From Verrucomicrobiaceae bacterium (GTDB lineage: Bacteria > Verrucomicrobiota > Verrucomicrobiia > Verrucomicrobiales > Verrucomicrobiaceae), in the NCBI GenBank assembly GCA_027486585.1, contig JAIXOU010000081.1:62001-126000 (forward strand): a DNA stretch of 64,000 nt, given 5' to 3'. This document shows, piece by piece, positions 15,192-38,200 of the stretch (within the stretch, counting starts at the first letter, position 1; every line of letters starts with the position of its first letter). A program made the position numbers and the translations under genes. The notes beneath the pieces are model-generated. The model was not told the DNA's origin, made no database searches, and was given only the letters and a program-made list of their open reading frames with translations.

Positions 15192-16223
15192 ATGTTCGGC
15201 AAATTCTTCGGCTTCGTAGCCAATGATATGGGTATCGATCTTGGTACCGCAAATACTCTCGTTTACCTCAAGGATCACGGCATTGTACTTCGAGAACCCT
15301 CCGTTGTCGCCGTCAAAACCGGCACCAATGAAGTGGTCGCCGTTGGCGACGACGCTAAACGGATGCTAGGAAGAACCCCCGGTGGGATCACTGCCATTCG
15401 CCCTCTAAAAGACGGCGTTATTGCGGACTTCCGTGTGACAGAGGCCATGCTCCGTCACTTCATTCGCAAGGTGAACAATAATCGCCGCGCATTCCGCGGA
15501 CCTCGTGTCGTCATTGCTGTGCCGTCAGGCATTACCGAAGTGGAAAAGCGCGCTGTCAAAGAAAGCGCCGAGCAGGCTGGAGCACGTGAAGTCTATCTGA
15601 TCGAAGAACCCATGGCTGCCGCCATCGGCGTCGGTCTGCCGGTCCAAGAAGCTGCTGGCAATATGATTGTCGATATTGGTGGTGGAACGACTGAAGTCGC
15701 CATCATTTCCCTAAGTGGCATTGTTTACAGCCGCAGCGTCCGTGTCGCAGGCGATGAACTTGACGAATCCATCATCAATTACATGAAGCGTGCCTATAAT
15801 CTCATGATTGGTGAGCGCACTGCTGAGGAGATCAAGCTTCGCATCGGATCGGCCTTCCCACTTGGCAAGGAAACAACCATGGAAGTTAAAGGACGCGACA
15901 TGGTAGCGGGACTCCCGAAAACCATTACCATCACCAGCCAGGAAGTGCGTGAGGCCATGCTAGAACCCTTGAACGCCATCATTGATGCCGTCCGCACCAC
16001 TCTTGAACGCTGTCCGCCTGAACTTGCCGCTGACTTGGTTGATCGCGGCATCATGCTTGCAGGTGGTGGAGCCCTGCTCCGCGGCCTTGATAAACTTCTT
16101 CAGGAAGAAACTGCACTGCCGGTCCACATCGCTGATGATCCATTGAGCGCCGTGGGTGAAGGTGCCGGTCGAGTTCTAGGTGAACTTGAATTTTTGAAGA
16201 AGGTCAGCACAACCGAGGTCTGA
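15192..16223 (+). CDS. mreB: Rod-shape-determining actin homologue MreB
   Basis: The 343-residue protein has canonical length. Visible are the membrane-binding amphipathic start [14 protein letters not shown], the phosphate-1 loop [12 protein letters not shown], the [15 protein letters not shown] segment, the phosphate-2 motif [32 protein letters not shown], and the adenosine motif [18 protein letters not shown]. MreB polymerises on the inner membrane and guides the elongasome. It is the first gene of an operon with mreC, mreD, PBP2 and RNase E/G. A good promoter lies 120 bp upstream. The 79-bp gap to mreC holds two hairpins that may separate expression levels. Confidence 0.98.
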
Positions 16224-16274
16224 ACCTAACGAATGATGTGATTCTTCACAGCTGTTAGGTCAGAGTTATCTCTG
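16222..16274 (+). promoter_or_regulatory. Two consecutive hairpins between mreB and mreC
   Basis: Hairpin 1: ACCTAAC (16224-16230) pairs with GTTAGGT (16254-16260), enclosing TGTGA/TCACA around a TTCT loop. Hairpin 2: CAGAG (16261-16265), loop TTAT, CTCTG (16270-16274). They fill most of the intercistronic gap. No U-tract follows, so RNA stabilisation, processing or attenuation is more likely than full termination. Confidence 0.5.
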
Positions 16275-16302
16275 AACTGATCAATCTGGTGACAAGGCAT
16301 CC

Positions 16303-17127
16303 ATGAAAAAGCTTAACATCCTGGCGCTGCTTATGTTCATTGCGGCAGTCGTTTCAGTCTTCATGCTGGACACACCGACAACGCGCATGATCCAGAGTCG
16401 CGCAATGTCAGCACTCTCACCTTTCGTGCACTCAAGCGCGGCAATTGAGGATGGGGTCTCCGGCGCTTTAGTCACATCGATTGACCCGCGCGAGATCAAA
16501 CGAGAGAATGATCGCCTTCAAATTGAGAACGAAAGACTGAGCATCATTTCACAGAAATATGTTCAGACTCTAGACGAGAATAACAAACTACGTGATCTTC
16601 TGGAATTTAAGAAAGCATCACCTTACAAAATGATCGCAGCGCGAGTCATTAAGCGCGTTTCCTCGACTTGGTGGAATACCATGATCATTGACAAAGGCCT
16701 GCTTGATGGCCTAGCCACAGACACGCCCGTCATTAGCGCAACAGGCCTTATCGGCAAGACCGGCAAAATGGCCCCCCATATGTGTGAGGTTATTTTGCTC
16801 ACCGATGAAATGTGCCGCGTCTCAGCCAAAATCGAGGGCACGATTGAGCAAGGCATCATCTCTGGCGAACGCGCAGGACTGGACATGCGCCCCGACCTGA
16901 GGCTGCGTTTTTTGAATCGCAATGCCATCATCAATCCAGGTAGCAACGTCATTTCCACAGGTGAAGGCGGCGTCTTTCCAGCAGGCTTATTGGTTGGACG
17001 TGTGAAGCGGTACGAAAACAAAGACATCACCGCCGATGCCGTGGTTGAACCAGCTGTCGATTTTTCGATTTTAGAGCACGTGTTTGTCCTCGAAGTCCCC
17101 GTCGAAGACAGTCCGCCCAAGAAATGA
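16303..17127 (+). CDS. mreC: Rod-shape-determining protein MreC
   Basis: The 274-residue protein has the MreC layout: a short cytoplasmic tail, one transmembrane helix (LNILALLMFIAAVVSVFML), a coiled coil (ENDRLQIENERLSIISQKY), then a beta-rich periplasmic domain with VIKRVSSTWWNTMIIDKG, PVISATGLIGKTGKM and NVISTGEGGVFPAGLLVGRV. It bridges MreB to periplasmic elongasome enzymes. It sits 79 bp after mreB and 16 bp before the mreD-like gene. ATG 16303 gives the expected short N-terminus. Confidence 0.93.
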   Translation: MKKLNILALLMFIAAVVSVFMLDTPTTRMIQSRAMSALSPFVHSSAAIEDGVSGALVTSIDPREIKRENDRLQIENERLSIISQKYVQTLDENNKLRDLLEFKKASPYKMIAARVIKRVSSTWWNTMIIDKGLLDGLATDTPVISATGLIGKTGKMAPHMCEVILLTDEMCRVSAKIEGTIEQGIISGERAGLDMRPDLRLRFLNRNAIINPGSNVISTGEGGVFPAGLLVGRVKRYENKDITADAVVEPAVDFSILEHVFVLEVPVEDSPPKK

Positions 17128-17143
17128 CTGACCTTTAAGTTTC

Positions 17144-17761
17144 ATGATTTTCTATCCGGTCACCATCCTGCTACTGTTGCTCACTTTTGTGGTTCAGGAG
17201 TTCATTCCTGGATTGTCCATGGCTCATTACGCCACACTTCTTTTGCCGCCTGTCTTTTTCTTTGCTTCAGCCGTAGCTGTCCCCTTCCCGATGATGCTCT
17301 TCATGGCTTTCATCACAGGCTTTATGTGGGACGCGCGCTATCTACCTGGCGCGTCTAACACCATCAAAAGCGCTTCAGACAGCCTCATCTCAGGGTCTCT
17401 CGCAGCACCAGAGCTCATGTCTGTAGGTGGATTTGGATTCGGTGTCTCGATCATCCTCTTTGCTTTTTTGGGAACCTTTCTCCAAGGCGTAAGGCCCTTG
17501 TTCAAACGCGGCAGACTCGAGCTTCCAGTGCTGCTGGTAGGCGTCACGACCTTTCTTTGGCTGCTTTTAGAATACCTGATGATGACCTTCTTGCGTGGCA
17601 GCCTGCATTTCCCTGCGGCCATCTGGTCAAAAATGGTCACGGATACTCTTTTAGCCATGTTAGCATCTCCTTTGCTTTTTCTTTTGCTGTATTCCTTAGC
17701 TGGACTGTCTAGATATGAAATTAAATATGATGGACTGAGGTACTCTTTCGATGGTCGTTAA
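17144..17761 (+). CDS. mreD: MreD-like integral membrane protein
   Basis: The 205-residue, very hydrophobic protein has about five transmembrane helices, e.g. FYPVTILLLLLTFVVQEF, YATLLLPPVFFFASAVAV and TLLAMLASPLLFLLLYSL. Sequence similarity to MreD is weak, as usual for this family. The call relies on topology, length and position between mreC and PBP2. Its last 11 bp overlap the PBP2 start, so translation is coupled. Confidence 0.8.
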   Translation: MIFYPVTILLLLLTFVVQEFIPGLSMAHYATLLLPPVFFFASAVAVPFPMMLFMAFITGFMWDARYLPGASNTIKSASDSLISGSLAAPELMSVGGFGFGVSIILFAFLGTFLQGVRPLFKRGRLELPVLLVGVTTFLWLLLEYLMMTFLRGSLHFPAAIWSKMVTDTLLAMLASPLLFLLLYSLAGLSRYEIKYDGLRYSFDGR

Positions 17762-20015
17762 ATATCGCTTCCGACTCTACCTATTGACCCTCGCCATTTT
17801 GTGCGGGTTTGGGGTTCTCGTGTACCGACTATGGTGGCTTCAGATTGAGCACCACCAAGAATTCGTCAATAAAGTGCCGGAAGCTAAGCGCGAGCGCGCT
17901 CGTATCCCCGGCGTTCGTGGCGAGATTAAAGATCGCAACGGTATCGTTCTAGCCACGAATAAAGCTACCTTTGAAGTTCGCGTGAACTTGCGTGAAGTGC
18001 ATGATGAATATGCACGTCAATGCCGAATCAAGAAGGTCAATATCCCAACGGTAGGATTTGAGTTCAAGGATCGTGGCATCATCCGTCAGAAGGAAGAACC
18101 TGACATTGTCACGATGTTTAGGGAACTCATCGAAAACCGGCTGGCTGAGATGAACTTAGCAGGTGCCGATCAAGATGAGCAGGATCTACGAGTGCATTAC
18201 CGCAGCTTTGGTGGCGTCATCCCTTACGTCTACAGAGATAACCTTACCTTTTCTGAATTCAGCCGGTTTGCCGAGCATAATCTCTCTCTGCCGGGCGTGA
18301 CCGTGGCAGAGCGTGGAAGCCGCGTCTATCCCTTTGGCGCGCTTGCCTGCCATATGCTGGGTTATGTCCGTCTTCCAGATGATCAGCGAGTCTCTGCTGA
18401 AGAACGCAAGGGCTGGGACTATTACATGCCGGACGATTTTGGTGGTGCCGGCGTGGAGAAAAGCTTCGACTCCTACCTGAAAGGCCGCCCTGGAGTCCGC
18501 ACCATGCAGAAAAATGAACGTGGGCGAATCGTTGGTGAAATCAAAGGCAGCTATGAGGCACCACGCAAAGGCAACGATGTCTATCTGACCCTCGATGCAC
18601 GCATCCAATTCATCGCTGAAAAAGCGCTTCGAGATGGCAACATTGGCCGTGGCTCAGTCGTGGTCATCAATCCCCAGAGTGGCGAGGTCTTGGCCATGGC
18701 CACAGTACCCAACTACGACCCGAACCGATTTATTCCAAGCATCACCCAAAAAGACTGGGATGCGCTCAACGATAACCCCGTATTCCCCATGCTGAATCGA
18801 GCCATTCGTGGTTTCGCACCGGGATCGACTTACAAGGTACCTATTGCTCTAGCTGGCTGCGTCGCCAAAATTCAAAACAATCGCTACAACTGCAGCGGCA
18901 GTGTCACCTACGGCACCAATGCCATGCAATGCTGGATTCAACGCCAAAGTGGAGGATCACACGGATCATTGGGACTCAGCGATGCACTGATGCGCTCCTG
19001 CAACTGCTTCTTTTATCAATACGGCAATGCGGCAGGCATCGAAAACATTACGAAGGTTGGAAAAATGTTAGCCTTGGGCGAACGCACAGGCATCGAACTC
19101 GACGAAGAAGACACGGGCATCCTGCCAAACCCTGAGTGGTTAAGAGTGCACAGTCCACAAGAACGCTGGAGCTCTGGTTACACAGCCAATACGTCCATTG
19201 GCCAAGGCTCTGTTTTAGCTTCACCGTTACAAATGGCCTCTGTCACTGGTGCTGTCGCTTCAGGAAAAGCCTACAAGCCGCACCTCCTCTATAAAGTCAT
19301 GGATGGCTCAGAAACAGTGGAGCCACACAAGCCACAACTTCGCGCCGATTTGAATGAGCACTTCTCAGACAAAGAACTGGAAGTCGTGCGCAAAGGCATG
19401 TGGAAAGTCGTCAACGACGCCAGTGGCACAGCCAAAGCCGCGCGAATTCCAGGGGTTGAAGTCGCAGGAAAAACTGGAACAGCTCAGAACTGGAGAAGAG
19501 ATGATCGCGGTAATCGACTCGAAGATAACCACACCCTTTTCATCAGCTTCGCTCCGTACGTGAATGCCAAGTATGCAGTCTGTATCCTAGTGCAGGGCGG
19601 TAAGTCCGGCGGCGGCTGCGCAGCCCCTGTCGCCCACCGCGTCCTTGAGCAATCCTTAGCCTTAGACAATGGCTACAATCCAAAGATCGAAGCCCTTGCC
19701 GAAGTAACCGGCAACTTTAACAAGATCGAGTCCGTCAGCTATGCTGATTCCGGCATTCCAGCATTAGCTGCTGTTGATGAAGACGGCGACACAGGCACCG
19801 ACGCACCAGAGCGCGAGGCATCCGACGCCGCCCCGCGTGTCCGCATCGCCGCACCCAATATTCGTAAACAGTCTGACTCCAACCGTGAGACCCCGACGAG
19901 CACGCCCCGACGGGCGGGCATCTTCAGTCGTGGAGCTAGCTCTAGCGAATCACCCCAACCTTCAGGAACATCCAACGGTGGTTTTTTCCGCAGGTTATTC
20001 CGCGCGCCGCAATAG
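17751..20015 (+). CDS. mrdA: Penicillin-binding protein 2 (elongasome transpeptidase)
   Basis: The 754-residue protein starts with a short cytoplasmic tail and a transmembrane helix (FRLYLLTLAILCGFGVLVYRLWWLQI), then the class B pedestal domain (VRGEIKDRNGIVLATN). The transpeptidase domain has the nucleophile motif STYK (Ser359), SCN (Ser416-Asn418) and KTGTAQ (Lys574). It cross-links lateral-wall peptidoglycan with MreBCD. The gene overlaps mreD by 11 bp. The C-terminal ~100 residues are an unusual disordered Ser/Pro/Arg-rich cytoplasm-like tail ending GGFFRRLFRAPQ, longer than in E. coli PBP2. RodA, the usual partner, is not in the window. Confidence 0.95.
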   Translation: MVVKYRFRLYLLTLAILCGFGVLVYRLWWLQIEHHQEFVNKVPEAKRERARIPGVRGEIKDRNGIVLATNKATFEVRVNLREVHDEYARQCRIKKVNIPTVGFEFKDRGIIRQKEEPDIVTMFRELIENRLAEMNLAGADQDEQDLRVHYRSFGGVIPYVYRDNLTFSEFSRFAEHNLSLPGVTVAERGSRVYPFGALACHMLGYVRLPDDQRVSAEERKGWDYYMPDDFGGAGVEKSFDSYLKGRPGVRTMQKNERGRIVGEIKGSYEAPRKGNDVYLTLDARIQFIAEKALRDGNIGRGSVVVINPQSGEVLAMATVPNYDPNRFIPSITQKDWDALNDNPVFPMLNRAIRGFAPGSTYKVPIALAGCVAKIQNNRYNCSGSVTYGTNAMQCWIQRQSGGSHGSLGLSDALMRSCNCFFYQYGNAAGIENITKVGKMLALGERTGIELDEEDTGILPNPEWLRVHSPQERWSSGYTANTSIGQGSVLASPLQMASVTGAVASGKAYKPHLLYKVMDGSETVEPHKPQLRADLNEHFSDKELEVVRKGMWKVVNDASGTAKAARIPGVEVAGKTGTAQNWRRDDRGNRLEDNHTLFISFAPYVNAKYAVCILVQGGKSGGGCAAPVAHRVLEQSLALDNGYNPKIEALAEVTGNFNKIESVSYADSGIPALAAVDEDGDTGTDAPEREASDAAPRVRIAAPNIRKQSDSNRETPTSTPRRAGIFSRGASSSESPQPSGTSNGGFFRRLFRAPQ

Positions 20016-20052
20016 CGGCAAAACAACTTCCTAACCAAACAACTATAACTTT

Positions 20053-21645
20053 ATGGCCCTCGGCATCGTTCAAAGAATCAAAGAATTCATCACTGGCAAA
20101 AAAGATCTAAAAACCGGCACACGTCTCGTCATCAACTGCGAAAGGCTGGAAAATCGCGTGGCACTGCTCGATAACGGAGCACTCGAAGAGTATACCATCG
20201 AGCGCGTCGGCACGAGTACCATCGTCGGCTCCATTTTCAAAGGCCGCGTCAAAAACATCGAACAAGGACTCAAGGCCATGTTCATCGACGTAGGCCTAGA
20301 TAAAAATGCCTTCCTGCACTTTTGGGATGCCATTCCTGAAGCCCTATCCAATCAAGGCATGGAAGAAGTCACCCGCGGCGGTGCCCCGAAAAAGCAGAAG
20401 CGCATTAAGGCTGAAGACATCCCTAGTCTCTACCCCGTAGGTTCTGAGATTATGGTTCAGGTCACAAAAGGCCCCATCGGCAATAAAGGTCCACGAGTCA
20501 CCACGAACATCTCTCTGGCCGGCCGACTGCTCGTCCTCATGCCCCAGAATGATCAATTTGGTATCTCCCGCAAAGTCGAAGACCCCAAAGAGCGCGCGCG
20601 CCTTCGCAAGATCATCGAAAAGGTTAATCTCCCAGAAGGCATGGGCCTCATCATGCGCACCGAAGCCTCAGGCAAACGTGCCCGCCACATCATTCGTGAT
20701 CTCAGCCTGCTCATCGAACAGTGGAATGACATCGTCACCAAACGTGATGGCCATAAAGCCCCCGTCTGCTGCTTTGAAGAGCCAGAACTCATTGAGCGCA
20801 CTGTCCGTGACTTCCTCACCGAAGAGATCGACGAAGTCGCCTGCGATGACCGTGAAACCGTCGAGCGTATGCAAAAGATGGCTGCTCAAATTTCCCGCCG
20901 CGCCAAGAGCCGCATCACTTTTTATCAAGGCCAAGTCGCCCTCTTTGAACATTACGGCATTCAGAAGCAAATCGACAACGCCTTCTACCGCCAAGTTTGG
21001 CTACCCTGCGGAGGCTACATCGTGATTGATCAAACCGAAGCGCTCGTCTCCATCGACGTCAACACCGGCAGAAACAAAGGCTCCAAAGACCTCGACCGAG
21101 TCATCGTCGAGACCAATCTCGAAGCCGCTCAAGAAGTCGCACGTCAGCTCCGTCTCCGTAACATGGGTGGACTCATCGTCGTGGACTTTATCGACATGAA
21201 ACACCGCCGCGATCAGCAGGCTGTGTCTAAAGCTATGCAGGAGCACCTCAAGCGTGACAAGGCCAAAACTCAGGTCCTCCCCATCAGCCAATTTGGCCTC
21301 ATGGAAATGACTCGTCAGCGCCTCCATGAAAGCCTGAGCAGCGCCCTCTATGAGCCCTGCCCATACTGCAAAGGCAACGGCCAAGTGAAAACCACCATGA
21401 CCATGAGCGTCGAGCTTCAGCGCACCCTGAGCGCCATTCTTGGCCGTGGCAAACCGGAACAGAAGTCCCTCGTTGTTGTCGTTCATCCAGAAGTGATGCA
21501 ACGCCTTAAAACTGAAGATGGCGAACTCCTGGTCGAACTCGAACGCAAGTATGAGGCGCGCCTCACCTTCCGCAGTGATCCAAACCTGCATCGCGAAGAA
21601 ATTAAAATCACAAGCACTCAAACTGGCGAAGAAGTCCGAGCTTAG
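20053..21645 (+). CDS. rng: Ribonuclease E/G family endoribonuclease
   Basis: The 530-residue protein is RNase G sized. It has an S1 domain near residues 35-125 (GSIFKGRVKNIEQGLKAMFI, DVGLDKNAFLH), the RNase H-like/5'-sensor region (GLIMRTEASG), catalytic Asp residues in VSIDVNTGRNKG and VVDFIDM, and the zinc-link CPYCKGNG that holds the dimer. No long RNase E C-terminal scaffold is present. mreBCD followed by rng is a conserved arrangement in many bacteria. It lies 37 bp after PBP2 and is probably the last gene of the operon. It degrades or matures RNAs with 5'-monophosphate ends. Confidence 0.93.
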   Translation: MALGIVQRIKEFITGKKDLKTGTRLVINCERLENRVALLDNGALEEYTIERVGTSTIVGSIFKGRVKNIEQGLKAMFIDVGLDKNAFLHFWDAIPEALSNQGMEEVTRGGAPKKQKRIKAEDIPSLYPVGSEIMVQVTKGPIGNKGPRVTTNISLAGRLLVLMPQNDQFGISRKVEDPKERARLRKIIEKVNLPEGMGLIMRTEASGKRARHIIRDLSLLIEQWNDIVTKRDGHKAPVCCFEEPELIERTVRDFLTEEIDEVACDDRETVERMQKMAAQISRRAKSRITFYQGQVALFEHYGIQKQIDNAFYRQVWLPCGGYIVIDQTEALVSIDVNTGRNKGSKDLDRVIVETNLEAAQEVARQLRLRNMGGLIVVDFIDMKHRRDQQAVSKAMQEHLKRDKAKTQVLPISQFGLMEMTRQRLHESLSSALYEPCPYCKGNGQVKTTMTMSVELQRTLSAILGRGKPEQKSLVVVVHPEVMQRLKTEDGELLVELERKYEARLTFRSDPNLHREEIKITSTQTGEEVRA

Positions 21646-22596: not shown

Positions 22597-25500
22597 ATGC
22601 CCTATCTGGCTTTTAATCTCAACGACGGAAATGAATTCGTCTTCGACATTCTCGAAGACCGTCTTTCCATAGGTCGTGATGCCAAGAATGACATCGTCAT
22701 CGACAACAGCTACATCTCTGGCTTCCACGCAGAAATGACCAAACAGGCAGATGGTGCCTACGAATTGGTCGATCTAAAATCCTCTAATGGCACCTTCGTT
22801 AATGGCCAACGAATCGAGCGATCAAAAATCAAAGGTGGAGATAAAATCCGCTTTGGTCAGTTAGACTCCCGCTTTCGTGAACGCGCCCCCAAGGGAACGG
22901 CACCTTCTGTCGAAGTAAAACCTGGAACAGGAGGCAAAGGATTAGCCCCTAAATCAGATGGGCGCAGCGGCAACACCGACTCAATCCCTGCCCGTGATGC
23001 ACCAGCTGCCGATGAAACTGGCCCCATCCAACCGACCCGTGCGCCCCTGGTTCGAAACGAGATAGGTGCAGCGACGATGGCCCCCTCAGCTGTAAGCCTG
23101 CCAATACAGCGCCCAGAAGTCATCGACCCGACGCTTAAAAAACAAGCGGACGAACTGAAAGAAGAGCTAACCAAGCTCAAACTGGAGCGTGATTTACTGC
23201 GAACAGAGAACGAAAAAGAAGCTCGGCGCCGAGATGAAATCCGTGCTTTAGAGAAGGCGCTGGAAACACGCCAAACCGAGGCCAAGGCAGCTGAGGAAAA
23301 CCTAGCAAAGCTCAAAGCTGATTTAGCCAATGCTCAGACAGAGACCGAAAAACTGGCCATCAAGCGCCGTGAAGCGGCTAATCTTGATAGCCAACTGGAA
23401 TCGAATCGGACCGAACTGAGCAAGGTACAGGCTGACATCAGCATGGCAACAAGTGGGCTCCAAGCTCTGCATCGTGATGCCGAAAAAGCTCAAAAAGATC
23501 GCCAAGAAGCTGCCGCGAAGTTCGAAGAGTTAAAGTCACAGCTTCTAGAGTCAGAAACTCGGGCCAAAGAACTGACTGCCCAAACACAAAACTTCACGGA
23601 GCTTTCTCTTCAATTCAGTCAGCTTCAAGCCAACGCAGCCAAAAGCGAGACCACACTCAAGACGCTGGAAGAACTCATCGGCACGAAAAAAGCCGAGTTA
23701 ACCAAGATTGAATCCAGTCTTACTGGCGCTCAAAAAGCCGTTCAAGCAACCCAATCTGAAGCACAAAACGGAGTCGCTGAATTATCAAAAGAAAAAGCAC
23801 AACTGGAAGAGCAAGTCAGCACCCTGCGTGCTCAGCTTAGCGATGGAGAAAAGAATCTCTCTGCGGTCAAGAACCAGCATGGCATGATCGAACTGGCCTT
23901 GACGGCTTTGCTTGCCAAACAGCAATCCGCCGAATCAACGGTTTCATCGCTAAACTCGCAGACGGAAAACACCCAGAAATCTCATCAGGTAGCCCTTGCG
24001 GAGACTCAGTCGCTCGAGCTCAAACTAGCAGAACTCAGGGCACAGATAGCCGCAGCTAAGGATGAGCAGATCAAGCTCAGCACAAATGCGAGCACTGAAA
24101 CGAAAGCCTTAGAGCAGGCACTTCAAAGCAAGAGGACAGAACTCACTCAACTCGAGACTGAGATCAAGACACTTGCGACACAAGAAGCAGCAATCCAAGC
24201 GCGAGTCGGTAACCTCTCAACGACCGAAGCTCAGCTCAGCAAAACGGGACAAGACCTGCAGAAGCTGGAATCCCAAAAAGCCGAATTGCAGTTAGCCGTC
24301 TCAGGCCTTGAAGAGACCCACTCTAAAGCCAATGCAGCGTATCTGGCACTCACCTCTCAAATTCAGAGCCGTGAAGCAGAGATTCCGAAACTGGAGACCC
24401 AGGTCACTGAACTGCAAAAGAGCGCCGAGCGTTTGACATCGATTCAGGCTTCAGTGGCCGAAACCGAAGGCGAACTCAAAGTCCTCAGCAGTAAGAAATC
24501 CGAGCTTGAAGCCTCTGTCTCTAAGCAGCAAAACGAACTCAGTGCGCTACTGCAACAAAGCAAGCTTGCCACCGGAGAACTCGAAGCAAAATCCAAGCAC
24601 CTAGACGAAGCGATCCAGACCAAAACCATGGCTCTCGAAAGCCTGGAAAAAGAGTTGTCTCAATTGCAGGCTAAGTCCGCTGATCTTACCCACAAGCTTG
24701 ATGACTTAGCAGGAACAGACGCCAAACTGGGCAACGCCAATGAAACCTTAAAAGCGGTTGAGTCCCACAAAGCCGAACTCACTACCGCAATTCAGGACAT
24801 GTCGGCTCAGCGTGATACGCTCACTCGTGACCTTTTAGCAGCGACAGAACAGGGGCGCGCTCAGCATACACTCACGCAGACTCTTAGCAGCCGCCGCGAA
24901 GTTCTCGAAAAAGAAATCCTCACCACTGAAGAGCAAAAAGACACCCTTTCGACTGAACTCGGAAAAATGCGTGAAAGCCTGCGCAGCACGGAATTGTCCT
25001 TGGAGATCAAGCAGAAGGACCTCTCCGAAGCAGACACCAAGGCCAAGCAAGCCAAAGAACAGACAGAAGAGGCAAACCGTCATCACGAACGTTTGCAATC
25101 TGAGATGGAAAAACTGCGTGAAAAACTCACCAGTGGCCAAACAGAGCTAGCAGCCATCCAAGCAGAGGCCGAGAGCAAACGTCTTGCTGCTGAAAGCTCC
25201 GCAGCCAGCCATGAGCAGCACAGTACGCGTCTCGTTGATTTACAGGCCAAAATTGGCGGGCTTGAAACCCTCTTAACCACACTCGCCGCCACACACTTAG
25301 CCAGCCAGAATGAGCTCACTGGCCTGAAAACCCAGCATCGTGAGGCCACCGATCTACTCACGACTCGTCAGCAAGACATTGCGGCATCCGAAGCGCGCCT
25401 TGCTGAATTGCGTCATCTAACGGCGACCTTTGACGCCCGCGTCATCGAGCTCTCTTCCACAGAGAAGAAACTCGGAGAAGCCAAGGCTGCTCTCATCGCC

Positions 25501-27825
25501 GCAAATCAAGAGTTTGAGAAAGCAAAGGCAGAGTCCCAACGACTCAGTGATGAGCGTTCTGATCATGAAAAACGTCTTCCGGCATTACGCGAAGAAACAG
25601 ACAGATTGCAGTCTGACCTAGCCGACAAGCTGAAAACAGTCGCCACTACAGAAGTGCGTATCACCGGACTGACACAGCAAGTGAAAGACCTGGAAACAAA
25701 GCTCGTCGAGTTAAACAACGCTCAAGCGACTCTGGAAAAAACCAAGCTTGAAGTCACTCAACTTGAAACTGAGAAAGAGACCATCAATGCCTTTGTCGCC
25801 ACTCTTCTGGCCCAACGCGAAGCACATGAAACCATCCTCCCAGGATTAAAAGCAGACGTTGAAGTGCTCAGAACAGAAGTTCGCACCCTGGCTCAGGACA
25901 AACAAACCATGGCTGCGGCTCTCGAGAAAGCCCAAGTTGACCGCCGAGCAGCCTCCGAACAGGCCGAGTCTCTGCGCATTGAAGCCGTCAATCTAGACAA
26001 GCTGCTGAACGATAAACGGAACAATCTCGAAGCTGAAACCAAGAGCAAGTTGGCCGAGGCCAACAGCGCCGAAGCCAAACTCCGCGAAGTCAACGCTAAA
26101 GTCACTGCGGCTGAAAAGCGTGCCTTGGAACTCGCTACCGTTGAAAAACAATTGGCCGCTGCCACACAAGCCTGCAAAGACAGTGAAAAGCTGCGCCAGA
26201 CCGAAGAAAAAACGGCAGCAGAACTAAAATCTCAACAAGAGATGTTACGCAAAGATCTGGCCGTTATCGAGCTAACGATCAAAGATACCCATCTTCAAAT
26301 AACAGAGCTGACCAAGAAGCTAAAATCTGAGGAGGAAAGCCACGCAGACGCCCTCAGCCGGACCGAGAAAGCCAATCAAGCCCTGCATACCGTCGAAACC
26401 AAACGCCAGGAAGCTGAAGAGGCTGCGCTCAAAGCCCGCGAAGAAGAGAAAAACCTGCGTAAAGGCATCCCTGCACTGAATACCGAAATGGCAGGTATCC
26501 AGGCCATGCTAGCGACACTTAGCCGAGAGCGCGATGAAGCCTCTCAATACGTGACACGTCTCAACGTCACCACGGACAGCTCCAACAAAAAATTAGCTGA
26601 ACTCCAACAGCAGATCTCTCAACTCGAGGAAGCTCATCGTCTGCGTGAAGAACGTCTGATTAAAGCACAAGCGGAAGTGGACGCCGAAAATGCCCGGCTT
26701 AAAGCCGTGCAGGAACAATCACGTGCAGCTGAAACCGCGCTTCAGGAGATCGAGCGTGAAGTCAAAGAAGCACGGCCAAAAGCCGAAGCTGCCCGCAATC
26801 AAGTCAGCAATCTGGAAGGTGTGCTTACGGAGCGCCTGGATCGCGTCCAAACGCTCAAACAAGAAGAGGATCGTCTCGGCAAAGAACTCGCAGCGCGCCA
26901 AGAAGCACTTCAAAAAGCCGACACGGCCTTGCTTGAAGCGCGCGAACAAATCTCAACCGAGCAGAAACGTGTGGTCGAATTCACTCATGTCGGCGATCAG
27001 GTGCTGACCCTAGGCGCAGCTCTTGCCAGCCTAACGACACGCCAAACTGAGACAACCAACTCCTTGCGCGAGGCGGCTGAGCGTGAGCTCGCCCTGCAAG
27101 TGAAGATCAATTCTCTCCAGGAAAGCTTTAACCGAGACTCGGCACGTGCTGAAGCCGCCAAGAAAGAGCGCTTGGAAATGGAAACTGCGCTTGCTGAGAT
27201 GACTGACAAATCACAGAAGCAATCCGCTAGCCTCACCGCTCTCGAATCCGAACAGCGCAAGCGCCTGGCAGAAATTGAAAAATCGTTGCATGATCAGATC
27301 ACTCAGACTGAGCGTGTGAAAAGTGAACTTTCAGGCCTGCAAGATCGGCGCGCCGAATTTGCCCAAGCAGAAGCTCAACTTCGCCACTGGCAGGAGATCG
27401 AAGCACGCCTGCGTGGCCAGCTCCTGGAGCTGGAAGAGAAACATGAAATCATGCGCCGAGGATTGCCGACAGATGAAGGGACCGTCATCATGTTTGCCAA
27501 TGACCTCATCAAGCGCATCGACCTCATTGATGCTCTGAGCGCCCGTTACAGCGGTCACAGTGGCGGTGATGTTGTCGCTCAACTCGGCACACTGCGTGCT
27601 TCCTTTGAGGATATCCTTCTTCAACATGGCGTCAGTGAGTTTGACATTGCCGCCGGAACGGAAGTGGATACGCAGTTGCGCAAGCGAATTGCCGTCGTGG
27701 ACAGCCTTCCTGGAAAAGAGAAGCCACGAGTCGTTGAAACTTGTCGATCTGGCTTTATGTATTCCCGAGAGGAAGGCCAAGAGGTCATCCTACGAAAAGT
27801 AGAGGTCCGCACCTCCAGTCAATAG
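22597..27825 (+). CDS. Giant FHA/coiled-coil protein with GrpE-like C-terminal domain
   Basis: The protein has 1742 residues and no signal peptide. Residues ~5-92 are an FHA domain with the phosphothreonine-binding set GRD, SGFHAE, SSNGTFVNG. Residues ~93-190 are a Pro/Gly/Ala linker. Residues ~190-1620 are almost continuous coiled coil rich in Glu, Lys, Leu, Ala and Gln. The last ~119 residues are globular and look like GrpE: FEDILLQHGVSEFDI, then VDTQLRKRIAVVDS, and finally a GF-x-EVILRKVEV strand pair matching the GrpE beta-wing. GrpE releases ADP from Hsp70. The gene directly downstream (42 bp) is an Hsp70, which strongly supports the call. It probably scaffolds a chaperone at phosphorylated partners. 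Confidence 0.8.
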   Translation: MPYLAFNLNDGNEFVFDILEDRLSIGRDAKNDIVIDNSYISGFHAEMTKQADGAYELVDLKSSNGTFVNGQRIERSKIKGGDKIRFGQLDSRFRERAPKGTAPSVEVKPGTGGKGLAPKSDGRSGNTDSIPARDAPAADETGPIQPTRAPLVRNEIGAATMAPSAVSLPIQRPEVIDPTLKKQADELKEELTKLKLERDLLRTENEKEARRRDEIRALEKALETRQTEAKAAEENLAKLKADLANAQTETEKLAIKRREAANLDSQLESNRTELSKVQADISMATSGLQALHRDAEKAQKDRQEAAAKFEELKSQLLESETRAKELTAQTQNFTELSLQFSQLQANAAKSETTLKTLEELIGTKKAELTKIESSLTGAQKAVQATQSEAQNGVAELSKEKAQLEEQVSTLRAQLSDGEKNLSAVKNQHGMIELALTALLAKQQSAESTVSSLNSQTENTQKSHQVALAETQSLELKLAELRAQIAAAKDEQIKLSTNASTETKALEQALQSKRTELTQLETEIKTLATQEAAIQARVGNLSTTEAQLSKTGQDLQKLESQKAELQLAVSGLEETHSKANAAYLALTSQIQSREAEIPKLETQVTELQKSAERLTSIQASVAETEGELKVLSSKKSELEASVSKQQNELSALLQQSKLATGELEAKSKHLDEAIQTKTMALESLEKELSQLQAKSADLTHKLDDLAGTDAKLGNANETLKAVESHKAELTTAIQDMSAQRDTLTRDLLAATEQGRAQHTLTQTLSSRREVLEKEILTTEEQKDTLSTELGKMRESLRSTELSLEIKQKDLSEADTKAKQAKEQTEEANRHHERLQSEMEKLREKLTSGQTELAAIQAEAESKRLAAESSAASHEQHSTRLVDLQAKIGGLETLLTTLAATHLASQNELTGLKTQHREATDLLTTRQQDIAASEARLAELRHLTATFDARVIELSSTEKKLGEAKAALIAANQEFEKAKAESQRLSDERSDHEKRLPALREETDRLQSDLADKLKTVATTEVRITGLTQQVKDLETKLVELNNAQATLEKTKLEVTQLETEKETINAFVATLLAQREAHETILPGLKADVEVLRTEVRTLAQDKQTMAAALEKAQVDRRAASEQAESLRIEAVNLDKLLNDKRNNLEAETKSKLAEANSAEAKLREVNAKVTAAEKRALELATVEKQLAAATQACKDSEKLRQTEEKTAAELKSQQEMLRKDLAVIELTIKDTHLQITELTKKLKSEEESHADALSRTEKANQALHTVETKRQEAEEAALKAREEEKNLRKGIPALNTEMAGIQAMLATLSRERDEASQYVTRLNVTTDSSNKKLAELQQQISQLEEAHRLREERLIKAQAEVDAENARLKAVQEQSRAAETALQEIEREVKEARPKAEAARNQVSNLEGVLTERLDRVQTLKQEEDRLGKELAARQEALQKADTALLEAREQISTEQKRVVEFTHVGDQVLTLGAALASLTTRQTETTNSLREAAERELALQVKINSLQESFNRDSARAEAAKKERLEMETALAEMTDKSQKQSASLTALESEQRKRLAEIEKSLHDQITQTERVKSELSGLQDRRAEFAQAEAQLRHWQEIEARLRGQLLELEEKHEIMRRGLPTDEGTVIMFANDLIKRIDLIDALSARYSGHSGGDVVAQLGTLRASFEDILLQHGVSEFDIAAGTEVDTQLRKRIAVVDSLPGKEKPRVVETCRSGFMYSREEGQEVILRKVEVRTSSQ

Positions 27826-27867
27826 TAACCGTCAATTAAAGATCTCACCCTCACTCAAACAACTTTT

Positions 27868-29358
27868 ATGGCTGAATATGTTGGCATCGATCTTGGCACC
27901 ACGCTCTCCGGGCTCGCCTATTTGAAACCTGATGGCAATCCTGAGATTGTCCCAAACTCTGATGGTGAGCGGCTCACCCCGTCCGTCGTCTTTTTTGAGG
28001 CGCATGAAGATGTCAAGCTGGTCGGCAGCGCTGCCCGTGACGGTGGCGAGCCAGACCGCACCGTGTTTCAAATCAAACGCTACATGGACGATCCCGAGCA
28101 CCTCGTGGAGATCGACGGTAAAAAATGGACCCCCGCAGAAATCTCGGCCCTGATCCTTTCTAAGCTGAAACGTGACTGCTCCAAAATCATCGGAGAAATC
28201 AAAGAGGTCGTCATCACCGTTCCCGCTAACTTCAATGAACTGGCCCGTAAGAGCACCATCGCAGCTGCTGAAATGGCCGATTTAAAGGTGAAGCGTCTGG
28301 TCAATGAGCCCACCGCTGCCGCCGTTTATTATGCCCACAGTCAGGGCGTGCAGGGCCGCATCCTCGTCTACGACCTCGGTGGTGGCACCCTGGACGTGAC
28401 GATCCTCAATGTCGAAGGTGACAATATCCGCATTCTCACCAGCGAAGGCGCGCGTCACCTCGGTGGCAGCAACTTTGATGAAATGCTGCTGGAAGCCTAC
28501 GCTGAGCAATACAGCAAACAAACCGGTGCCAAACTCTTCACCGATGAGCGTCACCGCCGCCGCGTGCTCCAGACCACGGAAGATGCTAAGAAAATGCTCT
28601 CCAAGCTTCAGCGCGTGAATGACACCGTGGCCAATGATAAGAATGATGGCATTGCCCGCATTGATCTGACTCGTGAAAGCTTTGAAAAACTCATCCGCCA
28701 GATGCTCACCCGCACCGTCATGCTGGTGGAGCAGGCACTGGATTCCGCCAAGCTAAAAACCAGCGAGATCGACCATGTCGTGCTCGTCGGCGGCTCCACT
28801 CGTATCCCGAAGGTGAAGACCGTTCTGGAAAAGCTCTTTGGTAAAGTTCCCAAATCCTGCGGCAATGTCGATGAATGTGTGGCCCTCGGCGCTGCCATCT
28901 TTGCCAAACGATCTGCCCGCATTCAGGAAGTCTGCAATGCCAGCTACGGCACGGTAGCCATGGTTTACAATGCTAGGACTGGGGAAGAGAAGCTCATGAA
29001 TTCCGTCGTGATCCCGAAAAACACGCCGATCCCCTGCTCCCGTACTCAGATTTATCAAACCAGCGAGGACAACGAGCGCGTCATTGAGGTGGACATCACC
29101 CAGGGCGAAGATGAAGACGCCAAGTTTGTCGATGTCATCGGCCGCATCACCCTGGAAGTGCCACCCAACCGCCCAAAAGGTTGTGAAATCGCCGTCACCT
29201 TCAGCTACGATGAAAACCAGCGCGTGCGCGCCCTTGTCGTGGATAAACAATCCGGCCGCAGTCGCGAAGTCGCTGTCAGCTACAAAGGCGCAGGTGTCCT
29301 ATCGGATGAAGATCTAAAACGCAAAAGCGCTCACCTCAGAACCATGCGGATCGAGTAG
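27868..29358 (+). CDS. Lidless Hsp70 (DnaK-like) chaperone
   Basis: The 496-residue protein has a complete Hsp70 nucleotide-binding domain: VGIDLGTTLSGLAYL, LVNEPTAAAVYY, ILVYDLGGGTLDVTIL and VVLVGGSTRIPKVK. A ~110-residue beta-type substrate-binding region follows (TQIYQTSEDNERVIEVDITQGE, GRITLEVPPNRPKG). It ends where canonical DnaK would start its alpha-helical lid, ~140 residues short. It is therefore not the housekeeping DnaK. No dnaJ or grpE gene is adjacent, but the upstream giant protein carries a GrpE-like domain. Client holding without a lid suggests specialised, weak or fast binding. Confidence 0.9.
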   Translation: MAEYVGIDLGTTLSGLAYLKPDGNPEIVPNSDGERLTPSVVFFEAHEDVKLVGSAARDGGEPDRTVFQIKRYMDDPEHLVEIDGKKWTPAEISALILSKLKRDCSKIIGEIKEVVITVPANFNELARKSTIAAAEMADLKVKRLVNEPTAAAVYYAHSQGVQGRILVYDLGGGTLDVTILNVEGDNIRILTSEGARHLGGSNFDEMLLEAYAEQYSKQTGAKLFTDERHRRRVLQTTEDAKKMLSKLQRVNDTVANDKNDGIARIDLTRESFEKLIRQMLTRTVMLVEQALDSAKLKTSEIDHVVLVGGSTRIPKVKTVLEKLFGKVPKSCGNVDECVALGAAIFAKRSARIQEVCNASYGTVAMVYNARTGEEKLMNSVVIPKNTPIPCSRTQIYQTSEDNERVIEVDITQGEDEDAKFVDVIGRITLEVPPNRPKGCEIAVTFSYDENQRVRALVVDKQSGRSREVAVSYKGAGVLSDEDLKRKSAHLRTMRIE

Positions 29359-29402: not shown

Positions 29403-29747
29403 ATGTTCAAGAAGATCCTCGCATCCCTCTCAAAGTCCCAGACCGCCAAGACCGAGGCTCCCAAACAAGCGCCCGTGACAGCCCCCGCTCCTGTCGCTCC
29501 GACAGCCGGTGGTGTTCTGAATCAACTCGCTAAACCAGCGACGGTGCCGGACAAACCCAAAACTCCTGAAGAGCTTTGTGAGATCACGCCGAAGATGTCC
29601 AAAGATCAGATTCAGGCTCAGCTAAAGCTGCTTTATCGCCGTTACAATCGCAGTGCCTCCAGTCTAGATTCCAAAATCCGCAAAGAAGCCGACGACATGC
29701 TCACCGCCATCGTTGTGGTGCGGGAGAAAAACTTTGGAGAGATCTGA
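29403..29747 (+). CDS. Small protein with possible degenerate J-domain shape
   Basis: The 114-residue protein has a ~55-residue Lys/Pro/Ala-rich N-terminal part and a compact helical C-terminus: PEELCEIT, then KDQIQAQLKLLYRRYNR, a short loop SASSLD, and IRKEADDMLTAIVVVREKN. Helix lengths and spacing are like helices I-III of a J-domain. The HPD tripeptide needed to stimulate Hsp70 is absent, so this is a hypothesis only. It lies 44 bp after the Hsp70 gene and 38 bp before the CbiX-like gene, all on one strand. Confidence 0.6.
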   Translation: MFKKILASLSKSQTAKTEAPKQAPVTAPAPVAPTAGGVLNQLAKPATVPDKPKTPEELCEITPKMSKDQIQAQLKLLYRRYNRSASSLDSKIRKEADDMLTAIVVVREKNFGEI

Positions 29748-32224: not shown

Positions 32225-35200
32225 GTGAAAGTCTCATCCATTTTATTTTATCGAGCTTTGATCTGCCTTTTTCCGGTTTGGCTGGCCTTGGGTTTGGTGA
32301 GTGTTCAGGCTCAAAACATCATTACCATTGATGGGAAAAAGGCTTCCTCTAGGGGTATCTTGGCCAAGCTGAAAAACACGAATCATCGTTTGGAATCTGC
32401 TGTGCTGAATCAGACGATGGCTCAGAAATCATTGCGCCCAAAGGCATTGAGTCAGCAGGGGGGCGTGCGTGGCTTGATGCATTTGGAAAAGGTGGGCTCT
32501 AAGACTCAAGTTGGAGCGCTCAGCAGCCAAGAGGCGAAGAGCTTGGTCAAGGAGTTGATGGCCACGGGTCTTTATGACTATGTGGAGCCGGACTGGATTG
32601 TGACGACTCAGCAAGTGCCAACGGACACTGCTTTTACGAACGGAGCCCTCTGGGGGCTGCGGAATACGGGTCAAAATAGCGGCACCCAGGATGTGGATGT
32701 GAATGCAGTGCCTGCATGGGCTTTGACCCGAGGATCACCCAATGTGATCGTCGGGGTGATCGATTCTGGCATCCGCTACACCCACCAAGATTTGGCGGCC
32801 AATATGTGGCGTAATACGAGGGAAATTGCAGGCAATGGCATCGATGATGATGCCAATGGCTATGTCGATGATGTACACGGGATCAACGGCATCACCAATA
32901 GCGGTGATCCGATGGACGATAACAATCATGGAACACACTGCGCCGGCACCATTGCAGCTACCGCAAACAACGCTGGGCAGCATGTGGGCGTGGCGTATAA
33001 CGTGCGTCTGATGGGGCTGAAATTTCTAAGTGCCTCAGGCTCTGGTGCTACTTCAGATGCGATCAAATGCATCAATTATGGTGTGGCCCATGGGGCGACC
33101 ATTTTGAGCAATAGCTGGGGAGGTGGGGGTTACAGTCAGTCACTGAATGATGCCATTGCCGCAGCAAGCCAAGCTGGGGTGCTTTTCATCGCAGCGGCAG
33201 GAAATTCGGCCACGAATAATGATTTAACCCCCCATTATCCGTCCAATTATGATACGGCCAACATGGTCTCAGTAGCGGCGATTACACGCACGGGAGCACT
33301 GGCAAGCTTCTCTTGCTTTGGCCGCACGACAGTGGACATCGCGGCTCCTGGGGTAGAGATCCTTTCCTGCACCGCCACATCTGATACTAGCTATGCTTCC
33401 TTTCAGGGGACGAGTATGGCCACTCCGCATGTCGCTGGGGTAGCTGCGCTGGTGAGAAGTCTGCACCCAGCAGCGAGTATGATCGAGTTGAAAAACCGTC
33501 TGCTCGTCGCAGCCCGCCCCTTGGCTTCACTGCAAGGGCGGATTCTTACTGGCGGTATGGTGGATGCCAATGCCGCACTGACGGTGGCCGCTGATGGCGT
33601 TTTAGAGCTGCGTGCATCGGCTCAGTCTGCACAACTGAATGCCGGGTCGAATGCGGCTATTTACATCATGGTTTCTGACCTACTGCCCGTTACGGGTGCG
33701 ACGGTCACTGGCACTCTTGGCGCTGGAGCTGTCGTTCCTTTTTTAGACAATGGTGTGTTGCCTGATGTCTCGGCGAATGATGGGACCTACTCGGCTAATT
33801 TCAGCGTGCCCCAAGCGCTAAGCACGGTGAACCTGAGTGTCCAGGCGAGTGCGCCCTCAGTAACGGCTGCTTCGGCCACCTTTCCCTTCACCATCATCAC
33901 CCCGCCAGTGAATGATTTGTTTGCAAACCGAGTGGTGCTTGCCGCTGGCAGCACGCAAACAAGGGGGAGTAACCGCCTAGCTGGGAGTGAAGTCGGTGAG
34001 CGCAGAAATCCCAGCACTGCAGGTGGCGTGACTGTTTGGTGGGAATGGGAGGCCGGAAGCAGTGGTAGCTTCACCATCACAACTTCCGGCAGTAGTTTTG
34101 ATACGACCATGGCTATCTATTCTGGCACGGCTAGTCTCACGGCGATGAACTTGATCGGCTCAAATGATGACTCGTCTGGCCTGACAAGTTCTGTGACCTT
34201 TAATGCGGTGACCGGCCAGCGCTTCTTTATCCAAGTTGACGGTTATTCGGGTGATGTCGGAGACATCGTCTTGAACTATCCTGCGCCAGTTAGCGCGAAT
34301 TCGCCGCCTGTGATTGCCGTCCAGCCGGTAGGCGCGCAGATGATTGTCGGTGATCCATTAAGCCTGATGGTGTTGGCCAATGGAAGCGTGCCGCTGACGT
34401 ACCAGTGGTTTTTTGAAAATGCCCCGATCTCGAATGCCCGATCAGCTCTTTACACACTGCCTGCGGTTCAAAAAGTGAACGAGGGTAACTACTCTGTGGT
34501 GATTACCAACCCATTTGGCAGCATCACCAGCTCTGTGGTTTTTGTCGGGGTAGATCCTATTTCTGTACGTCCGAGTAACGATGCCTTTGCCACAGCTGAA
34601 GTTCTGCCAGGTGCAACAGGCCGCGTGAATGGGACGAACCTGCGTGCATCTGCTGAAAGTGGTGAGCCAAATCATGCGTCAGCATCCACCCCGATCGAGT
34701 CTGTTTGGTTCCGCTGGACGGCGCCTTCGGATGGGGTGATCTCCTTCAACACCTATGGCAGCTCTTTAGATACGACCTTAGCTGCCTACACCGGCACGGC
34801 CGTGGGTGCATTGACGGCGCGTGCCGCAAACAATGACACGGGCGGAGTGCAGAGCTTCATCAGCACTCCCGTCGTCTCGGGGCAGCAGCTCTCCATCGCT
34901 GTGGATGGTGCAGGGACTCTGGAAGGTATCTTTTCACTCAATTATTATTTCCAGCCCACGGTGCCCGGTCTGATCAATGATTCTTTTGCCAATCGAAGCA
35001 TCGTGCCAGGAGTCTCTGCGACGGTGACGGGGAGTAACATCTCTGCCACGGAGGAGCCTGGAGAGCCCATTCACAGTCCCTTGGCAGCGCCGACTGCATC
35101 TGTCTGGTGGGAATGGACGGCACCCACCAATGGCGTTGTGGTGGTGGATACTTTTGGCAGTGATTTTGATAGCGTATTGGCCGTCTATACCGGCTCAGAC

Positions 35201-38200
35201 TTGAATGCATTGTCTCTGGTAACAGGTAACGATGATGCAGGCAGCACTGCACAGAGTCGTGCCACCTGGAACTGTGTAGCCGGTCTTTCGTACCTGATCG
35301 CGGTGGATGGCCGTGGCAGCGCGGAGGGGACCATCAAATTAAATCTTTCAGCAGGCATCTTTGCGCCAGAAATAGGGGTATCCCAGCCTGAGACTGGGAA
35401 TCTGGTCGATGGCGTGTCGCAGGTGAATTTTGGCGGAGTGACCTTGGGGCTGAATCGCACCCTCGCATTCACCATCACCAATTCAGGCGGGGCCGATTTG
35501 AACGGCTTGGGTATTGTGGTCGATGGGAATTCAATCAGTGATTTTAGCCAACCTGGACTCTCGGCAACGACGCTCCCCGCTGGCCAGTCCACGAGTTTTT
35601 TGCTACAGTTTTCTCCCCAATCATTGGGGCAAAAATCCATCACTCTACGCCTGACAAGCAATGACGGAAATGAGAGTCCTTTTGACATCAGCATCGTCGG
35701 CTCAGGCTTGCCTGCGATGCCTGAAATCAGCCTGGAGACAGCCGAGGGCAATGTGCTCACCGCTGGAGCGTCCTCAGTTTTCTTTGGCTCTGTGGCGCGC
35801 GGGCTTTCTCGATCACAGACCTTTGTGATCCGGAATTTAGGGCAGGCGGCTTTATCCAATATTGCCACCTCACTTAGTGGGCTGCAATCCGGTGACTACA
35901 GCTTTCTCACGCTTCCGCCAGCTGTTCTTCCAGCAGGCACCAGCGCTTCTTTTGTGATTCGCTTTTTTCCAGCTGCGATTGGCAGCCGCAGTGCGGTGCT
36001 GAGCATCGTGAGCGATGATGCGGATGAGAGTTCATTCCTCATTAACCTCAATGGGCGCGCATCCAACCCAGCGCCAAACTTAGGCTTCCAGATCAGTGAA
36101 CTAAAAACCACAAATGCCCAAGTTATCGATCATTTTGGCCTCACTGGAGATGATCGAGGTGGCATCGCGCTTTCAAGTACGCGAGTCTTCGTGACTGGGG
36201 ATTCTGCGACGGCAGGCTATAACTTGGCGGATCTCAGCGATGGAGCCTCAATTGGCCGTGTGGCAAATGGGCTATGTACTGACCTAGCCACCAACCAAGC
36301 CTACGTATTGGCGGCAAATGGTACGGAAACCAGTTCTGCGGGCACGGTCAATCAGCTGATCCCGATTCATGCGACGACAGGAGCGCGCACGACTCCCATC
36401 ATCAATTTGGGGCAAGCCGTCGTCATGGGCTCAGGCAGCGGTATCTTCAGTGGTTATGGCCGAGTGGTGTTGCATACAGGCACAGACGTTTTTGAGGTGC
36501 GGGTGCCCAGCGGGGAGGTGATCCCCCAAGGAAGCATGCGGAGGCCGACCTGGAATGCCTCTGAAAACTGGGCGGTTTGGGGAGTTGCTGAGGATTTTGG
36601 CGGTTACCTTTACCTAGCCTATGCCACGGGCGCCACGATCACTCGGGCACGAGTTCCAGATGGCGCTACCTCGGTCATCTCCACCTTCACTAACCTGGCC
36701 GACATGGCGAACTGGGTGGCCTCTCCCTCGAATAATCGTTGGTATTTTCATCATGAATTCACGAGTCAGTTTGGGGGCGGCAGCGAGATCCTCGGTTTCG
36801 CCGATGCAAGCTATTTGATAGGGCCACCGGCAGCAGCTCCAGACATCACCAACTCTGGCACGGCTTTGGCATTCGTGGGAGGCGGATTTTTTTATCAAAT
36901 CACAGCTACGAATCAGCCAACGAGCTTTTCTGCCACGAGTTTGCCACCAGGCTTGGTCGTGAATCCTGCGAATGGATCCATCATCGGCATTCCGACGGCT
37001 GTGGGTGTTTATGACTGCACTTTAAAAGCAACAAACGAAGTCGGTTCAGACAGTCAGATCATCCGAATCACCACACGCATGCCACTGCCTTCTTTGAGTG
37101 ATGATTTTGATCCAGGTATTGATGGAAATCTGTGGTCTGAGTTTGGTGGCACTGTGACTGCAAACACCCTAGGCCAGCAGGCAGGCGCAGGCTCCACGGG
37201 AAACAGCCTCTATTTTGCAGGAGAGGGAAGCCGCTTCGCAACGACTTACCCGATTGATACGCGGACTCTGACAGCGGTTTCGTTCACAGTTGCGCTAGCC
37301 AACGGCCCGTCAGGAAATTGGGAGTCTGTGGATACGGGTGAGGAGCCTGTGCTGGAGTATGCACTCGATGGCAGGAACTTTACTCGTCTTGGTGGCCCGT
37401 ATTACAATCGTGCCTGGCGTAGTTATGTGGTGGCTATCCCAGCTGCGGCACGATCAGTGGCGACGAGTTTCCGCTGGCGGCAGCTGAGTGCTTCTGGGAC
37501 GACCTTTGATCAGTGGGCCCTGGAAGATGTGGTCATTGGTTCGGGCACTCCACTTGCTCCAGAGATTTCTGTGGATTCACCTCTGGGTACAGAAATGGTT
37601 TCAGGGGTTTCTACCGTGAGCTATGGCGGCGTGGGCGTGACCTTGACCTCTAGCCGCAGTTTCACGGTGCGTAATGATGGCGGAGCAGAACTCAACCATT
37701 TGAATGTGATGGTGACCGGTGCCGATGCGAATGAGTTCCGAGTTCAGTCTCCGCCGGCCGCTTCTATTCCATCTGGTGCAACGTCATCTTTTAACCTCAT
37801 TTTTGCACCCACCAGTCCTGGTCTAAAGCAGGCGAATCTGCGCATCGCCAGCAATGACGCTGATGAATCTATTTTTCAGTTAGTCGTGACTGGCTCAGGA
37901 TTGGTCTTAGCTCCGGATATAGCCGTTGAGCAGCCGTCGGGTTCTGGTCTTGTGGATGGAGTCTCTACCGTGAACTTTGGGAACACTCTAGCCACGCAAG
38001 CTGTGCAACGAACATTTACCATTCGTAACACAGGTGTCGATCAACTTGGCGGCATCGCTCTCAACATCCTCGGCCAGGATGCCGATTTATTTACAGTGGT
38101 CTCCAGCCCCAGCTCAACTGTCTCTGCGGGTGGCTCAACGAGTTTTACGGTCAGATACCTGCCAACGATTCAAGGTCAGCAGTCTGCCGTCTTACTGATC

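Follow-up and report, generated by a model that had tools for sequence, protein, structure and literature searches.

The FHA-GrpE protein and its locus

A stretch of 64,000 nucleotides from a Verrucomicrobiaceae bacterium (GenBank assembly GCA_027486585.1, contig JAIXOU010000081.1, forward-strand positions 62,001 to 126,000), called the window here and numbered from its first letter, carried three consecutive genes on one strand. They encoded a protein that joined an FHA domain, a long coiled coil and a GrpE domain, an Hsp70 lacking the helical lid, and a small third protein. The first two open reading frames (ORFs) lay where a sequence-only reading of the window had placed them, at 22597-27825 (1742 amino acids, aa) and 27868-29358 (496 aa), with a gap of 42 bp between them, and the ORF of 114 aa followed the Hsp70 gene after 44 bp. 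The features of the locus were as follows.

22597..27825, + strand: FHA - coiled coil - GrpE protein, 1742 aa (ORF calling, Pfam)
22666..22857, + strand: FHA domain, residues 24-87 (PF00498)
23152..27366, + strand: coiled coil, approximately residues 186-1590 (strong 3.5-residue periodicity)
27298..27822, + strand: GrpE domain with a long entry helix, the last 175 aa, as modelled (Pfam match at 27487-27765)
27868..29358, + strand: lidless Hsp70, 496 aa, ATPase residues retained (PF00012, DnaK alignment)
28930..28953, + strand: altered linker between the nucleotide-binding domain (NBD) and the substrate-binding domain (SBD), VCNASYGT, replacing VLLLDVTP of DnaK (alignment to E. coli DnaK)
29403..29747, + strand: third protein, 114 aa, with an amphipathic N-terminal helix, an Ala/Pro-rich spacer and a C-terminal helical hairpin
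29403..29441, + strand: predicted amphipathic N-terminal helix, with putative membrane association (hydrophobic moment)
29565..29735, + strand: probable J-like domain without HPD, helices 67-84 and 90-111 (structure and profile comparison)

The FHA domain of the 1742-aa protein matched PF00498 with E=2.8e-19. The pattern GR / S..H / NGT..N, which we take to be the phosphothreonine-binding positions of FHA, was present in 49 of the 53 FHA-positive proteins scanned, including the protein of the window. The periodicity power of the coil was 1.09, compared with a mean of 0.17 and a maximum of 0.29 in 200 shuffles. PADLOC matches to the SMC-like proteins LmuB and JetC were confined to this coil and were rejected. 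PF01025 (GrpE) was not listed when the entire 1742-aa protein was scanned; with the last 150 aa the match reached E=1.2e-5 and 25.4 bits, just below the Pfam cut-off of 25.8. All 16 members of alignment A1, the window protein among them, matched PF01025 at E<=0.1, the best at 3.8e-10. A profile of the GrpE part had no match by sequence in the PDB. The AlphaFold2 (AF2) model of the last 175 aa, with a mean predicted local distance difference test score (pLDDT) of 89.8, consisted of one long helix, two shorter helices and a beta-wing. Foldseek analysis of this model returned GrpE chains as the top eight matches (1dkg_A, E=3.5e-5), and VIA aligned 103 residues with 1dkg_A at Z 12.6 and 2.4 Å; the top six VIA rows were all GrpE, and the first non-GrpE row followed at Z 7.5. 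The C-terminus of the 1742-aa protein is a GrpE domain, and the placement of FHA, coil and a GrpE-like end on one chain by the sequence-only reading was borne out. The long spacer named in that reading proved not to be essential. FHA-GrpE proteins adjoining the Hsp70 ranged from 294 aa, with little coil (locus L222), to 2388 aa, so the length of the coil appeared to be free; the conserved feature is the linkage of FHA to GrpE, not the coil length.

The lidless Hsp70 and the small third protein

The 496-aa Hsp70 matched PF00012 with E=1.9e-103. Its C-terminal residue aligned with residue 525 of E. coli DnaK, whose numbering is used throughout; the beta part of the SBD (SBD-beta) was present and the helical lid (SBD-alpha) was absent, in agreement with the earlier description of a chain ending after the beta region. 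The residue counts given here refer to the 70 full-length named copies, all of which were 495 or 496 aa long. Residues D8, T11, K70, E171, D194, T199 and D201 were all retained in 70/70. A loss of the catalytic threonine (T199 to R) was considered and rejected, as the replaced residue was T225. The hydrophobic VLLLD linker was not present: L390 was replaced by C and L391 by N in every copy, and D393 by S in 68 copies and by G in two. Locus L068, which stands outside this set, had A and N at the positions of L390 and L391. Additionally, Y145 was replaced by N in all 70 copies, and R167 was retained in 69. Residue D481 was N in 69 of the 70, a change that says little because both DnaKs of the window's own genome share N there.

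The SBD-beta was strongly conserved. In the tree, the Hsp70s formed one clade (100/100) apart from E. coli DnaK, HscA and HscC and from the two DnaKs of the own genome, with a long-branch warning on genome G356, HscC and others. A housekeeping set, consisting of an ordinary GrpE and the two full-length DnaKs, was also found in the own genome.

The 114-aa protein had no Pfam match, and ten of its relatives gave weak, scattered matches only. Its N-terminus was amphipathic, with a mean hydrophobic moment of 0.60 versus 0.31 for shuffled sequences (74 sequences), and its C-terminus was predicted to form a helical hairpin. The HPD motif was found in none of the 77 small proteins (0/77), and a search with the small-protein profile returned chance matches only. 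J-domains headed the structure-comparison lists and made up 24 of the best 50 Foldseek rows. The hhalign comparison placed the first part of the small protein in register with J-domain helices I and II, not with helix III, at a score of 22.5 (20.3 when genomes G422 and G356 were left out of the profile), whereas none of 300 column shuffles scored above 19.4; the comparison with ribosomal L29 scored 12.3. When the hairpin was compared by VIA, the leading chains were 6rzy_A (Z 6.2), 5nro_B (5.5) and 2guz_B (5.5), of which 5nro_B is a J-domain bound to DnaK and 2guz_B a chain of the Tim14-Tim16 entry. Several results weigh against a J-like assignment. The VIA values were weak, with ribosomal chains reaching 5.0, and the best J-domain in Foldseek was weak as well (E=0.37, probability 0.91). 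The probability assigned to the J-domain match by hhalign itself was only 21%, and ten members of the small-protein family had no Pfam DnaJ match. By these fold and profile comparisons the small protein is probably J-like; we do not call it a J-protein.

Conservation and distribution of the module

The named loci nearest to that of the window carried Prosthecobacter or Verrucomicrobiaceae in their titles, and the titles of the wider set pointed to Verrucomicrobiales. Named relatives that are not metagenome-assembled genomes (MAGs) included Brevifollis gellanilyticus NBRC 108608 and Verrucomicrobium sp. Of 80 named loci identified through the Hsp70, eight of which extend no more than 1.5 kb upstream of it, 61 had a GrpE-type ORF whose end lay at most 400 bp from the start of the Hsp70; in 51 of the 61, this ORF also encoded FHA. 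A relative of the small protein was present in 77/80. The sequence-only reading had described the first two genes, whose linkage proved conserved; the unit comprises three genes, and the third had been missed. Neither of the two outcomes that the reading had named against itself occurred: a structural match to GrpE was present, and the linked Hsp70 was lidless and not of the housekeeping type.

Within the own family, the Hsp70 was found in 58/68 genomes (E<=1e-70). In 20 family regions that were fetched, a GrpE-type ORF lay upstream in 17 and the small protein was present in all 20; FHA was seen in 15 of the 17 ORFs, and the remaining two run off the contig. Across 27 diverse neighbourhoods, the Hsp70 family and the FHA-GrpE family each occurred in 23, and the small protein was counted in 14 under a 110-aa cut; no fourth gene family recurred in more than 8 of the 27. 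The sample of the order comprised 189 genomes, each searched with each model. The Hsp70 was found in 88 of them (52 of the 59 that belong to the own family), the small protein in 92 and the GrpE-type domain in 99, and all three components were found together in 80. The small protein occurred in 86/88 Hsp70-positive versus 6/101 Hsp70-negative genomes, and the GrpE-type domain in 81/88 versus 18/101. The absences in these genome searches are soft, because the best few candidates per genome were scored (for example, 4 for the Hsp70 and 11 for the small protein in the phylum sample) and the quality bar of the tallies was missed by 38 of the 189. In some genomes (G006, G008, G012 and G029) the GrpE-type and Hsp70 genes lay apart, yet both were retained. 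These results showed that the conserved module in Verrucomicrobiales is one of three genes, which encode the FHA-GrpE protein, the lidless Hsp70 and the small protein.

Outside the order, a phylum sample of 387 genomes gave Hsp70 matches at E<=1e-120 only in seven own-family genomes and in G422, and small-protein matches at E<=0.001 in the same seven, in G422 and in G356. The Hsp70 of G356 reached 1.3e-117 with a dedicated model, just missing the threshold. In both G422 and G356, which represent two other lineages of the phylum, a GrpE-like gene, a lidless Hsp70 gene and a J-like gene stood in the same order, and the GrpE-like protein was short and without FHA. Its last 150 aa matched PF01025 in G422 with E=4.2e-5 and 23.7 bits, below the cut-off, and the match in G356 was weak (E=0.01); in a GrpE alignment the rows of both genomes were out of frame and were left out. 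The Hsp70s of the two genomes had the linker signature VCN or ICN in common. G422 carried two lidless Hsp70s in tandem, 82% identical (L083 5188-8359), one of which lacked D8, T11 and K70; R167 was G in both of these copies and in G356. Additionally, a 385-aa protein of G422 combined a hydrophobic N-terminus, judged by eye, with a TerB domain (E=4.6e-12) and a C-terminal stretch resembling the small protein (E=3.2e-5), an arrangement of TerB and J that recalls DjlA. The third protein of G356 likewise had a hydrophobic N-terminus by eye and ended in the small-protein domain (E=4.4e-10); TerB was not found in it. We infer that the older form may have consisted of GrpE, the lidless Hsp70 and a membrane J-like protein, to which FHA and the coil would have been added in the order of the window.

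A number of variant loci were also seen. At L169 (8359-9366), a 335-aa ORF contained FHA, part of GrpE and the SBD of the Hsp70, with the NBD missing, which may stem from a deletion or from faulty assembly of the MAG. A stand-alone GrpE-like protein of 196 aa with a hydrophobic N-terminal stretch was encoded at L084 (6320-6910), in a 13-kb region with no lidless Hsp70. L085 (6431-8065) and L086 (5620-6996) carried FHA-GrpE paralogues, 544 and 458 aa long respectively, and the regions fetched around them gave no match to the lidless Hsp70. Genome G085 had a second lidless Hsp70 (L226, G085:C99) with its own small protein, and no GrpE-type ORF was matched beside it.

Directly upstream of the module in the window (15192-21645) were mreB, mreC, a probable mreD, pbp2 and an RNase E/G gene. 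The idea that the module is tied to growth of the cell wall was dropped, since among 130 loci scanned the RNase gene occurred in 3, pbp2 in 2 and a 213-aa gene in 3; the absence of mreB, mreC and mreD proves little because they are beyond the available flanks at most loci. A subtilase domain and numerous Ig-like and ASH/HYDIN-like domains were present in a 3456-aa protein that the window encoded at 32225-42595.

Possible working of the module and comparison with known systems

In an ordinary Hsp70, the lid, the linker and the HPD motif of the partner together trap the client after J-triggered hydrolysis. In the module, all three were altered and the exchange factor was kept, which makes a tether or holdase likelier than a refolding machine. 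In published work, the target of the HPD motif is R167, a residue paired with D393 of the linker and with D481 (PMC7289447), and the linker VKDVLLLD raises the ATPase activity 40-fold, a rise abolished by alanine replacement (PMC8215388). The altered linker and the missing HPD suggest that the Hsp70 cycle itself has changed, and point away from nucleotide exchange of the usual kind in the service of folding. Our tentative preference, held with slightly more doubt than confidence, is that the three-gene operon encodes a dedicated, rebuilt Hsp70 machine acting as a membrane-associated, phospho-targeted tether or holdase more than as a refolding machine. The FHA-phosphothreonine, GrpE-Hsp70 and J-like-Hsp70 binding steps of this proposal are taken from what is known of these families. 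The coiled-coil protein would be a parallel dimer, because the paired long helices of GrpE are continued by the coil. The FHA pair would dock on a protein phosphorylated on threonine by the cell's Hanks kinases; phosphothreonine is plausible because 21 protein-kinase matches, 20 of them over the cut-off, were found in the own genome. The GrpE head would hold the lidless Hsp70 and exchange its nucleotide, and the small protein, a J-like adaptor that has ceased to trigger hydrolysis, would keep this Hsp70 at the inner membrane. The complex would then link the phosphorylated partner to a membrane site as a tether or holdase that is gated by nucleotide and exchanges it fast. A more specific form of the proposal is doubtful, though worth stating: lid, linker and HPD, on which J-triggered trapping of the client depends, may have changed together, with ATP site and exchange factor left in place, to give a nucleotide-gated tether that connects a phosphorylated protein to a membrane-held Hsp70 over a coil of up to ~200 nm. 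A natural Hsp70 with altered lid, allosteric linker and partner HPD and an ATP site conserved across the order can show how an Hsp70 acts without a client trap. The exchange factor would also be aimed by phospho-recognition, and we know of no earlier case of this.

Other observations weigh against the tether or holdase. Normal cycling is possible because the ATP-site residues were intact and R167 was retained in nearly all copies. Genomes G067, which is one contig, and G058 had an FHA-GrpE protein (loci L089 and L081, respectively) with no Hsp70 or small-protein match at the thresholds used. Seven Hsp70-positive genomes of the order sample had no GrpE-type match, and at two loci (L150 4500-7634 and L224 7647-10874) the FHA-coil protein upstream of the Hsp70 had a C-terminus without a GrpE match. 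The intact ATP site and the retained R167 would also fit a specialised yet ordinary client-folding machine like HscA/HscB, with an active ATPase, a working J partner whose motif has been replaced, and FHA to bring the machine to phosphorylated clients. The strong conservation of SBD-beta and the retained exchange factor favour this explanation as well, but the lid was absent and the linker changed in 70/70 copies, and HPD was missing from 77/77 small proteins; we regard it as unlikely. A structural scaffold or cytoskeleton-like assembly, in which the GrpE and Hsp70 parts would do no more than dimerise and connect and no nucleotide cycle would run, appears more improbable still. The very long heptad coil and the persistence of the GrpE-type protein without Hsp70 in G067 and G058 speak for it, as does, for that copy, the G422 Hsp70 without D8, T11 and K70. 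However, a compact version with little coil exists (the 294-aa protein of L222), and one would not expect a part that only connects to have kept its ATP-site residues in all 70 copies.

We consider it highly improbable that the module is a defence or conflict system akin to the GTPase-centred neighbourhoods described in PMC7159879, although Hsp70, GrpE and DnaJ parts are encoded together there too. The recurrence analysis of the 27 neighbourhoods gave no additional family in more than 8 of them, with neighbours not scanned specifically for GTPase domains, and the PADLOC matches involved the coil alone, neither the Hsp70 nor the small protein. Moreover, no relative was confirmed in viral contigs, and the frequency of the Hsp70 in the own-family genomes of the order sample makes it look like a core gene.

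No paper on an FHA-GrpE and lidless Hsp70 system was found, by full text or by title and abstract, in a literature search whose coverage left out most subscription journals, and a word search of the main text of PMC11019930, on DnaK duplication, found neither 'verrucomicro' nor 'truncated'. Like the module with its probable J-like part, the GAP1-N2 systems gather a duplicate set of Hsp70, GrpE and J components in a single neighbourhood, and some of their Hsp70s lack the peptide-binding domain; in contrast to the module, they are GTPase-centred, occur mainly in actinobacteria and firmicutes and have GrpE as a separate gene, and an FHA-GrpE fusion was not found in the available part of that paper (PMC7159879). 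DnaK-DnaJ-GrpE comprises the same three kinds of component, beside which the module of the window is a second set; unlike the housekeeping set, it has no lid, no VLLLD linker and no HPD, and its GrpE is on an FHA coiled-coil protein. Tim16/Pam16 of the mitochondrial import motor has a J-like fold without HPD and is located at a membrane beside an Hsp70, much as proposed for the small protein, but it pairs with an active J-protein, and the operon of the window contains no second J gene. The ribosome-associated complex (RAC; PMC7083937) includes Ssz1, which is likewise an Hsp70 without the SBD-alpha lid, has an unusual detached linker and a dedicated J-type partner, Zuo1, and is described as an active low-affinity binder. 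No kinship with RAC beyond Hsp70 is claimed. Ssz1 binds ATP and does not hydrolyse it, and the J-domain of Zuo1 works, whereas the Hsp70 of the window retained its ATP-site residues, the J-like part has no HPD, and GrpE is fused to FHA.

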